Positions 22,041 to 53,376 of a DNA stretch of 64,000 bases are shown one piece after another (the stretch's first letter is position 1; each line of letters begins with the position of its first letter). Location of the stretch: NCBI RefSeq assembly GCF_004323735.1, contig NZ_CP036455.1, positions 4,521,101-4,585,100 of the forward strand, in the 5' to 3' direction. Below the pieces are notes generated by a model, which saw only the letters and a list, made by a program, of their open reading frames with translations, had not been told where the DNA came from and ran no database searches. Source of the DNA: Streptomonospora litoralis (GTDB lineage Bacteria; Actinomycetota; Actinomycetes; Streptosporangiales; Streptosporangiaceae). Position numbers and translations under genes: made by a program.

Positions 22041-22347
22041 CGGCCCCTCCTGTCGTTCCCACACCTGTGATACCCCGACAGCACCGAGCCTGGAACAGCC
22101 GGCCGGCCGGGTGCAAGCCGATCGGAATCGGTTTTCCGCCAGATGAGTGGGTCGAGCGTCGTCGATGGCCGAAGGCGGCGCAGGTCCGCTGGGCGGCCTT
22201 GCGGGTCTGCCGGGTGGAGGGCGGTCTTGCAGAAAAGCGGCGCCGAGAGCGGCGGGTGGCCGGGCCTGCGGTCGTCGCACCGGGTGCCCGCCGGTGGCGG
22301 TGCGTGGCGGGGCGGCGTTGGGCCGCGGCGGGCCGGTCGGCGCATCT

Positions 22348-22400
22348 ATTGCGCGGTTTCCGCCGGATTCCGGCCCGCGGGTTGGTCGAAACCCCGCAAT
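22348..22400. repeat. Hairpin with covarying stem (copy A)
   Basis: Outer arms ATTGCGCGGTTT (22348-22359) and AAACCCCGCAAT (22389-22400) pair at 11 of 12 positions. An inner hairpin CCGG-ATT-CCGG lies at 22363-22373. The equivalent arms in copy B differ in sequence but still pair (see 52150-52201), which is compensatory change. Confidence 0.7.
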
Positions 22401-22430
22401 AGGTGGCACCGGTCCCGCCGAGTCTGTCTA

Positions 22431-22481
22431 TCGCGAACTTATGGTCGCAGGAAGGCGTATTCCGCGGCCATAAGTTCGCGA
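22431..22481. repeat. 51-base hairpin in the invariant block (copy A)
   Basis: Arms TCGCGAACTTATGG (22431-22444) and its exact complement (22468-22481) enclose a further paired TCGC/GCGG and GGAA/TTCC with a loop GGCGTA. The sequence is the same at 52295-52345. It is followed in both copies by a smaller hairpin built on TAGG-GGA-CCTA. Confidence 0.75.
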
Positions 22482-23683
22482 TCATCGCCGGATGGACCGG
22501 CATAGGGGACCTACCGGCGCCGGCGGGCCGGCTGGGTGTCGCCGTGTCCCCTGCCGGGCCCGCACAGGGTGGAGGCAGCGCGGCGGGGCGCGGTCGCGGG
22601 TGCCCGCACGGCCCGGTGGCGCCGGATCGGGGGCCGGGGGGCGACGACACGTCGCTCGTGGCGCCCGGGCGCGGCCGACGGGGGCCCCACCCCCGATGGA
22701 GTGGAATTTTGGGGGCCTATGCCCGTTTTGCGGGCGGCCTCGGCGGACGCGGCGGCCACGAGGTGCACGAAAAGTTGACGTCGGGGGTGTTTTCGCGCCA
22801 TTCGGCGCGCCTCGTGCGCCCTCGCCGCCACAGTGCGGATGGTGGCCCGCCGGGGACTCGGGCATTGGTGGACAGAACACCCCATTTTCTTTCGTATCGC
22901 GGAATGACGTTGCCAAGCTGGCGCCTCGGGGCGGCACCGAGGCGGGTGCCGCCGCACGTACGTGCATCTCGTGGCCCCGACCCGGCCGCATGACCGCCGC
23001 CGAGAGCCCCGCGTCGCGCCCTCACCGGTAACCGGGCGGCGGCCCTCCGGGCCTCGACCACCCGCGGCCGGGGCCGGTGACCGCCGCCCCGACTACCGCA
23101 GACCCGGCCCCGCCGGCGTCGTCGCCGCTCTCGTCGGGCGCCGCCACCGGTGAGCACCGGAACCGACGACCGCGGGCCGAACCCTGCGCCGTCCTCGGCG
23201 CCGCTTTTCCCTACAGGACCACCCATTCCACCCGGCAGACCGACAAGGCCGCCCAGCAGACCGAGGCCGCTTCGCCGGTGGCGGCCCCCGGCGGGCACCC
23301 GGCCCGTTGGGCTCAGGGCCAACCACCCGCCACCGTCGCCGCCGCTTCTCGGTCAAGATCACCCGCCACCCGGCAGACCGACAAGGGCGCACAGCAGAGC
23401 CGAGCCGCCTCCGCCGAGCGCCGCCACCGGCGAGCACCCGAACCGACGTCCGCGGGCCCGGCCCCCACGCCGCCCTCGCCGCCTCGTCGGATGAGCCACC
23501 GGCGAGCACCCGAACCGACCCTCGCAGGCGCCACCCCGCGGCGTCGTCGCCGCCCCTCGTCGGGCGACCCGCCCCCAGCCTCGGGCGCGCGACCGACCGC
23601 CTGCGAACACCGACGGCATCGGACTCACTCGGACAAGGGCGTTCCCCATCGCGAAGGCGGCCGACCGAGTGCGCACCGGCGCA

Positions 23684-51560: not shown

Positions 51561-52115
51561 GCTCGTCTGCGCTGTGCGGCCTTGCCGGCCTGCCGGGCGG
51601 CGGGTGGCCTGCGGGGAACGACGGGCGCCGAGGGCGGCGGAGGGCCGGGCCCGCGGTCGACGCACCCGGTGCTGGCCGGTGGCCGTGGCCGACGCGAACG
51701 GGTCGGGTCCGCTGGGCGGCCTTGCTGGTCTGCCGGGCGGCGGGTGGCCTGCGGGGAACGACGGGCGCCGAGGACGGCGCAGGGCCGGGCCCGCGGTCGA
51801 CGCACCCGGTGCTCGCCGGTGACCGTGGCCGACGCGAACGGGTCGGGTCCGCTGGGCGGCCTTGCTGGTCTGCCGGGCGGCGGGTCACCTGCACGAAAAG
51901 GCGGCACCGAGGACGGCGCGGGGTCCGGCCTGCGGTTGACGCACCCGGTGCTGGCCGGTGACCGTGGCCGACGCGAACGGGTCGGGTCCGCTGGGCGGCC
52001 TTGCTGGTCTGCCGAGTGACGGGGCGCCTGACGGGGAACGACGGGCGCCGAGGGCGGCGGAGGGCCGGGCCCGCGGTCGACGCACCCGGTGCTCGCCGGT
52101 GGCCCGTGCGGCGGC
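51561..52115. repeat. Tandem array of 140-bp units (left side of copy B)
   Basis: Four near-identical units begin at 51561, 51701, 51841 and 51980 (periods 140, 140, 139). Each opens with GGTCGGGTCCGCTGGGCGGC (divergent in the first) and ends with CCGTGGCCGACGCGAACG (last unit divergent). The units are not CRISPR-like: they are long, have no spacers, and differ by scattered substitutions. The fourth unit runs into the core. Confidence 0.85.
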
Positions 52116-52149
52116 GGCGTTGGGCCGCGGCGGGCCGGTTGGCGCATCG

Positions 52150-52201
52150 AACGCGCGGTTTTCACCGGATTCCGGCCGCTGTCTGGTTAAAACCCTGCGT
52201 T
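52150..52201. repeat. Hairpin with covarying stem (copy B)
   Basis: Outer arms AACGCGCGGTTTT (52150-52162) and AAAACCCTGCGTT (52189-52201) pair throughout except for one C-C mismatch and one G-T wobble. Inner hairpin CCGG-ATT-CCGG is at 52165-52175. Compared with copy A, T-A and T-A pairs became A-T and C-G. Confidence 0.7.
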
Positions 52202-52219
52202 GGGCGGTACCGGTCCCAT

Positions 52220-52275
52220 CGAGTCTGTCTGCAGGGCTGGATTCGGCGCCGAATCCAGCCCTGCAGACAGACTCG
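52220..52275. repeat. 56-bp perfect palindrome unique to copy B
   Basis: The left arm of 28 bases starts CGAGTCTGTCTGCAGGGCTG and is followed, with no loop, by its exact complement. It is part of a 63-bp segment (52231-52293) present in copy B and absent from copy A, flanked by GTCT on both sides. It could be a slippage product or a mobile hairpin. Confidence 0.85.
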
Positions 52276-52294
52276 GCGCGGCTTGGCGCGTCTA

Positions 52295-52345
52295 TCGCGA
52301 ACTTATGGTCGCAGGAAGGCGTATTCCGCGGCCATAAGTTCGCGA
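52295..52345. repeat. 51-base hairpin in the invariant block (copy B)
   Basis: Same sequence as 22431-22481: perfect 14-base outer stem TCGCGAACTTATGG, an inner TCGC/GCGG and GGAA/TTCC stem, loop GGCGTA. Full identity in both copies over this hairpin and 110 bases beyond. Confidence 0.75.
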
Positions 52346-53376
52346 TCATCGCCGGATGGACCGGCATAGGGGACCTACCGGCGCCGGCGGGCCGGCTGGG
52401 TGTCGCCGTGTCCCCTGCCGGGCCCGCACAGGGTGGAGGCAGCGCGGCGGGGCGCGGCCGCGGGCGCTCGCACGCCCCCGGTGGTGCGCCGGAACGGGGG
52501 CCGAGGGGGCGACGTGTCGCTCGTGGCGCCCGGGCGCGGCCGCGGGGAGCCCCACCCCCCGATGGGGTGGTTTTTGGGGTCTATGCCCGTTTTACGGGCG
52601 ACCTCGGCAGGCGCAGCGGCCACGAGGGGCACGAAAAGTTGACGTCGGGGGCTGTTTTCGCGCCATTCGGTGCACCTCGTGCGCCATCCCCGCCGCAGCG
52701 CGGAGGCAGGCCCACCGATAACTCGGTCATTGGCGAACAAAACACCCCGTTTTATTTCGCATCGCGGAATGACGGCGCGAGAGTGGCACCTCGGGGCGGC
52801 GCCGAGGCCGATGCCACCGCACGTAGGTGCATTGCGTGCCCCCGGTCCGGCCGTATGACCACCGCCGACCGCCCCGTATCGGGCCCCGCCGACGACCGGG
52901 CGCCGCCCCGACCACCCCAGGCCCGGCCCCGCCGACGTCGTCGCTGCCCCCGTCGGGCGCGCCACCGGCGGGCACCCGGCCCGGTGTCCGCAGGCCCAGC
53001 CCACCGCCGTCCTCGGCGCCGCTTTTCCGTAAGACCACCCGTCGCCCGGCAGACCAACAAGGCCGCACAGCAGACCCGGGCCACCGCCTCGCCACCCCGC
53101 GGTGCCCTCGCCGCCACCGTCGGAACCGCCACCGGCACGCACCCGAACCGACGGGCACAGGCCCGGCCATCGCCGTCCTCGGTGCCGCCTTTCCCTCCAG
53201 GGCGCCTTGTTCCCGCCCGGTATCAAGACCGCACAGCGCAGCGGGGGCGCCGCTCCAGGCGGGGGCGCGCCGAGCGGACGGGCACACGGCACTCGGGAAC
53301 TCAGGGAACGGAACTGAGGAACTCGCGAACTCGGGAACCCGACGACGTCCCGTTAGCTGGGCCGACTCGCTTTTAG

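Follow-up and report, generated by a model that had tools for sequence, protein, structure and literature searches.

A family of about 100 intergenic elements with opposed unit arrays in Streptomonospora litoralis, probably non-autonomous transposons of IS5 type

What are the two long hairpin-rich repeats that lie in a 64,000-nucleotide stretch of the chromosome of the salt-loving Streptomonospora litoralis (hereafter the window), each with repeat arms of opposite orientation around a central core? An earlier note, made from the letters of the window, had left three readings side by side: a structured RNA gene, a non-autonomous mobile element, or a site bound by a chromosome-organising protein. 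The results below favour the second, through terminal repeats shared among copies, a TA target in CTAG-like sites, an insertion sequence (IS) with matching ends in a congener, and congeners that carry no unit at the site of the first copy; the other two readings are not supported.

The two copies, A and B, have the build described in the earlier note, with direct units, a hairpin core and inverted units in the expected places and orientation (Table 1). Its unit counts stand for the left arm of A and for both arms of B; the right arm of A, given as three units, resolves into two full and two half units. The span 22143-23620 proposed for A is approximate only, as no terminal repeat was seen there. 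Terminal repeats and exact boundaries were looked for at both copies and found at neither. A Pfam scan of six open frames from copies A and B gave no match, in agreement with the view that the element is not a protein gene and, as far as tested, holds no transposase in either copy. Open frames without a protein match do cross the copies, the longest (472 aa) at copy B. The perfect palindrome of B recurs in another copy (L205) as a variant in which the two arms differ from it by matching changes.

Table 1. Positions in the window of the parts of copies A and B
Feature	Position	Strand	Basis
Copy A left arm, one direct unit	22181..22301	+	unit HMM
Copy A core	22302..23132	+	
Copy A main hairpin CGCGAACTTATGG..CCATAAGTTCGCG	22432..22480	+	hairpin pattern
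Copy A right arm, inverted: two full and two half units	23133..23557	-	unit HMM
Copy B left arm, four direct units	51562..52104	+	unit HMM
Copy B core	52105..52959	+	unit HMM
Copy B perfect palindrome, 28-base arms without spacer	52220..52275	.	
Copy B main hairpin	52296..52344	+	hairpin pattern
Copy B right arm, two inverted units	52960..53240	-	unit HMM

Copies A and B belong to a large family. A search of the full genome with the core DNA of A, proposed in the earlier note, returned many intergenic copies, at least 40 (40 scored from 473 first-look candidates). The main hairpin was located at 53 places genome-wide at ≤3 mismatches (25 on the + strand, 28 on the -; reversed control 0), a second core pattern at 55 places (control 0) and the unit motif at 132 places (control 0), of which the first 100 were listed. 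Fetching the surroundings of the pattern matches yielded 111 clusters, together 104,708 bases, with a core in 99 of them, and ten further stretches raised the number of cores to 103. This is a lower bound because the other 32 unit places remained unlisted. Derivation of only two copies from one duplication, which the earlier note had kept as an alternative, is excluded by the roughly 100 copies in the genome; its count of two arose because its view was limited to the window. The printed length of the S. litoralis M2 chromosome is 5,878,427 in the accessible part of the genome report (PMC8448680), against 5724192 in C1, which is 154 kb less; the 89,998-bp episome agrees.

The arrangement of the arms is strict: the unit HMM placed 359 of 361 arm units in the genome on the expected side of the core, and both arms are present in 78 of the 99 core-bearing clusters. 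Units are about 140 bases long, half units about 70, and cores range from 109 to 879 bases. Mean pairwise identity was 81% among 55 aligned cores (55 of 75 kept, with cores below 480 bases omitted). One copy contains a transposase gene of the IS110 family (L100:4588-5898; NF033542, 182 bits, cut-off 140), flanked by core plus one unit and by outer arm units, and the gene is read as a secondary insertion.

Comparison of 278 units, those of ≤100 model positions being omitted, bears on how the arms may have formed. Units of one arm share a mean identity of 82%, with 10% of pairs exceeding 96%. Mean identity is 77.4% between opposite arms of an element and 76.8% between arms of different elements, which is no significant difference; homogenisation between the two arms of an element was not seen. 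At the level of sequence, these values fit tandem duplication within an arm, without correction between arms. Exchange between copies is suggested by A itself: 22426-23312 shares 96.6% identity, across 892 columns, with a copy on the opposite strand 38 kb away (genome 4504155-4505421; L085:3315-4202), and this tract stops within the elements, which would fit ectopic conversion or recombination between copies.

The copies sit between called genes, as judged for 75 elements with gene calls from a simple codon-usage script rather than a published caller. Their neighbouring gene pairs are tandem in 46 cases, convergent in 23, divergent in 5 and unclassified in 1, against 187/57/54 tandem/convergent/divergent for all adjacent pairs at the same loci, element pairs included. 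Gene 3' ends lie a median of 67 bases away, gene starts 268. Core orientation is unrelated to that of the neighbours (25 --, 23 +-, 21 ++ and 5 -+, relative to the core), strands are balanced in the two chromosome halves (28+/34- and 19+/18-), and spacing is near random (CV 1.08). One copy (L135:2138-3507, C1:2138-3507) begins 38 bases past the dnaA stop; beyond it lie a stretch containing two exact DnaA boxes and then dnaN, both genes being assigned by eye.

Sequences beyond the outermost units revealed that the better copies end on each side in a terminal repeat, CTAAGCCGTGTTTAAGAA, in inverted orientation. Its consensus is TA(A/G)GCC(G/C)TGTTTAAGAA, positioned at TA in CTAG-like sites; it occurs at 50 places genome-wide at ≤2 mismatches (control 0). 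Among 53 strict ends in the fetched sequence, CTAA precedes GCC in 33, and GCCCTGTTTAAGAAG is present in some copies (L205, L212). At least one terminal repeat was recognised in 39 of 103 elements and both in 20, leaving 64, including A and B, without a recognisable one. At the 3' end a unit directly abuts the terminal repeat; the 5' end carries a specific stretch of about 60 bases. Two-ended copies span about 0.4-1.8 kb, mostly about 1 kb or more. The complete copy at L205, of about 0.8 kb, illustrates the target site, as its flanks rejoin to CTAG around a single TA. TA lies on both sides of 13 of 23 candidate end pairs (CTAG 8, CTAC 2, CTAA 2, TTAG 1); the 10 pairs without TA on both sides are degenerate ends or spurious matches.

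Several copies depart from the common arrangement of ends. In L072 and L074 the core points the opposite way, with respect to the end types, from that in other copies; both ends of L086 are of the 3' type; and at L193:1465-1687 terminal repeats of both end types face each other about 0.2 kb apart, possibly a coreless miniature. Special targeting of stop codons was considered and set aside as unproven: frames of ≥80 codons are closed by 30 of 53 strict ends, and likewise by 414 of 966 other (C/T)TA(A/G) sites. A shifted control (24 of 541) was misleading because TA sites were not required in it.

A candidate partner for these ends was found in a congener. Genome G004 carries a 1040-bp IS (L226) with ends CTAGGCCCTGTTTAAGAAG, present as five copies that are 99-100% identical and a sixth at 83%. 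Its 302-aa transposase has DUF4096 and DDE domains and matches the IS5-family model NF033580 (E 2.5e-74, 250 bits, cut-off 110). The terminal repeats correspond, TAAGCC(G/C)TGTTTAAGAA in S. litoralis against TAGGCCCTGTTTAAGAAG in G004. The G004 IS probably belongs to the IS427 group, with which the TA target agrees. The accessible part of a published account gives IS5/IS427 elements as 832-865 bp long, with inverted repeats 13-21 bases in length and duplications that mostly measure 2 bases (PMC3281130); the G004 IS is like them in its IS5 family and TA, and unlike them in being longer.

The distribution of such transposases in the genus is uneven. PF13340 gave no match in S. litoralis or in Streptomonospora sp. 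PA3 (G005), and 2, 2, 18 and 13 matches in the other four congeners. The G004 transposase protein had no match in the S. litoralis genome; PA3 retains one C-terminal relic of this type, with no terminal repeat beside it (L249). The partner IS group thus exists in the genus and is undetected, except for the PA3 relic, in both species that carry the arm elements. A different IS5-type IS is present in G003 (L219:1423-2357, ends CTAGGGCGTGTTTTGTGG), a genome with 18 DUF4096 matches.

Beyond S. litoralis, the same architecture was recovered in PA3. No DNA relatives were found among plasmids and phages, and the exact hairpin pattern had no match in 84,980 genomes, the S. litoralis genome excluded. 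Core DNA 'matched' 104 of 200 family genomes (best 2 candidates per genome), and these matches were short outside S. litoralis (best E 2.4e-7 over 110 query bases) and are read as chance in G+C-rich DNA; a genus search with the best 40 candidates per genome gave 11 short matches in five congeners (best E 7.4e-6). A strict landmark pattern within the core identified S. litoralis and PA3 only among 297 family genomes. A looser form gave 21 stretches in 84,980 genomes, 18 of them in PA3; the other three, one each in Paenibacillus, a Clostridiales MAG and a Spartobacteria MAG, are taken as chance.

The PA3 family was characterised in 36 stretches, 16 obtained from arm similarity, 19 from the landmark and 1 as the site of A. 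Arm matches are mostly half units of about 60-70 bases, direct on the left and inverted on the right, and core length is 0.65-1.26 kb in the 13 stretches that have both arms. PA3 cores are alike among themselves, mostly at 82-88%, and mostly different from those of S. litoralis, the resemblance being confined to the short landmark, which occurs at 18 places in PA3, 20 in S. litoralis and none in the four other congeners. No terminal repeat was present at 43 PA3 outer ends, some places being counted twice. Several PA3 cores contain a stretch with GCCGTGT(T/C)T(G/C)AGAACGG-like starts, perhaps another repeat nested within them, which also lies without arms at the site of A. As PA3 contigs end inside or just past elements (L127, L128, L129), counts from draft assemblies may be too low.

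Positions appear to be rarely shared between the two species. When 72 S. litoralis loci and two window stretches were set against the 36 PA3 stretches (several duplicated), shared sites looked few: both flanks match at one locus (L023) and one flank at another (L030), while at five more loci the flanks match nearby off the element or, at A, arms are absent. The site of A carries no unit in any of five congeners (L116, L117, L118, L138, L139), a comparison of the absence of units rather than of a base-level empty site. In G002 and G003 the genes flanking A lie next to each other, their matches about 0.3-0.5 kb apart; in G001 and G004 the flanks are present, mutually inverted and 2.5 kb apart; in PA3 about 1.7 kb of other DNA lies there. 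Part of this PA3 DNA (L116:2547-3250) resembles a section of PA3 cores (consensus about 632-915) without arms.

Taken together, we read the family as a large non-autonomous DNA transposon of IS5 type, MITE-like and with foldback-like arms, presumably moved in trans by a transposase that has since been lost, and we place the probability of this reading at roughly 0.8. Such an element is known in kind and unusual in build. As far as sequence can tell, the copies are most likely relics, formerly moved by a borrowed enzyme. A well-preserved copy would consist of TA, the terminal repeat (A/G)GCC(G/C)TGTTTAAGAA, an inward array of ~140-base units or ~70-base halves, the palindrome-rich core, an inverted array, a second terminal repeat and TA. 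A transposase of the G004-type IS group would have cut at the terminal repeats, moved copies in trans into CTAG-like sites, and later been lost from S. litoralis. The CTAG-like target alone would place many insertions at gene ends, because so many (C/T)TA(A/G) sites, 414 of 966, close long frames. The arms may have grown by tandem duplication of DNA beside each terminal repeat, perhaps multiplying putative binding sites. Later, unit numbers would have drifted and ends decayed, and cores and arms would have been reshuffled as copies recombined with one another.

As in MITEs of the IS5 family, the copies, as judged from frames of A and B, encode no protein, share inverted terminal repeats that match an autonomous IS, show a short TA target and duplication, and are numerous and intergenic; an IS5 transposase is present in the G004 IS only. 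MITEs are usually under about 600 bp. The present copies differ in reaching ~0.4-1.8 kb, in the unit arrays of both arms, in the palindrome-rich core, and in that the partner IS was not detected in their own genome. Counting against the reading, 64 of 103 copies and all 43 outer ends in PA3 show no terminal repeat, the copies average 81% identity, an active source was not found in S. litoralis, and the partner is linked by ends, target and protein family alone, and comes from another species. The core-like stretch of PA3 at the site of A weighs on the same side, and the reading does not account for the persistence of so large a core.

A less probable reading treats the family as a bacterial foldback class that would date back at least to the separation of the two Streptomonospora species, with tandem arms that would serve as functional ends too. 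We hold this age and role of the arms only tentatively. We are equally doubtful of its second part, that cores would be replaced while arms and topology persist, with copies spreading or converting even without a terminal repeat, as PA3 might indicate. Foldback, Galileo and Tetris elements have long inverted arms of tandem direct units flanking a variable core. The present elements are like those of Drosophila (accessible parts of PMC4079207, PMC4168063, PMC3688188) in their inverted arms of tandem direct units, with 359 of 361 units so placed and 78 of 99 clusters two-armed. The Drosophila elements are eukaryotic and belong to other transposase superfamilies, whereas the ends described here match an IS5-family IS, so the likeness is one of form only; also unlike them, the two arms of an element resemble each other no more closely than they resemble arms of other elements.

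Improbable, by comparison, is an older intergenic repeat of arms and core that spread in some other way, some copies of which were later caught between IS5-type ends. The PA3 family, with arms and landmark and no terminal repeat detected, would suit it, as would the 64 of 103 S. litoralis copies that lack one. Against it, copies with a terminal repeat occur throughout the core tree (29 changes, shuffle mean 27.9; 93 of 103 cores, those below 200 bases omitted) and therefore form no late clade, and the 3' terminal repeat runs directly into a unit.

Slightly less probable still is a core encoding a structured RNA or RNA-guided element multiplied across the genome. A 22426-23115 does fold better than 20 shuffles, with z of -3.8 on the + strand and -4.2 on the -, an equality that follows because palindromes must fold on both strands. 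No Rfam match at the gathering threshold was obtained within the window. The main hairpin has 31 G.T pairs against 9 A.C, and among pairs common to both strands' folds G.T outnumber A.C by 64 to 28, half of this from a single hairpin; the larger excess in the + fold (1316 against 372 A.C), considered as a sign of strand-specific RNA, is mostly the fold's own bias. The top 200 covarying column pairs are mostly Watson-Crick in 24.5% of cases (12.6% for all pairs); a few, such as 227-258 (G-C 42, A-T 5), resemble real covariation. Yet of 45 pairs common to both folds only 4 show two Watson-Crick types, and many top columns split alike (43-44 against 8 sequences) even where pairing is impossible, so the covariation is weak and mostly what shared descent would give. 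Orientation unrelated to neighbours and cores of widely varying length likewise speak against an RNA gene. Least probable of all, a binding site for a chromosome-organising or origin protein, with arms as putative site arrays, would draw on the copy between dnaA and dnaN next to DnaA boxes and on the strict arm symmetry, and is countered by near-random spacing, the lack of strand bias and a core landmark in just 1 of 5 other congeners.

Known bacterial elements offer partial parallels to the IS5-type transposon favoured here. In the accessible part of its description, BrickBuilt of Porphyromonas gingivalis is a MITE with an internal tandem repeat, always intergenic and with 19 copies in one strain; its single array, made of a 23-base unit, is flanked by a leader and a tail (PMC4596501); the present elements instead carry two opposed arrays of 140-base units around a core. 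In a search outside which most subscription papers lay, we found no publication on repeat elements in Streptomonospora. Among the titles and abstract openings listed there on MITEs, IS5/IS427, foldback elements and subterminal repeats, none held a matching description, and the words 'foldback' and 'tandem' are absent from the accessible part of a 2024 review of prokaryotic MITEs (PMC10969869).

For annotation, the family is a warning, as long frames without a protein match, up to 472 aa, run across copies. If the reading is true, S. litoralis would harbour elements that parallel, in form, the foldback elements of eukaryotes, as a family of about 100 copies that makes up nearly 2% of the genome and has a candidate for its partner transposase in a sister species. 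It would open to test whether tandem subterminal arrays aid transposition, and how long inverted arrays persist and recombine within the chromosome of a bacterium.
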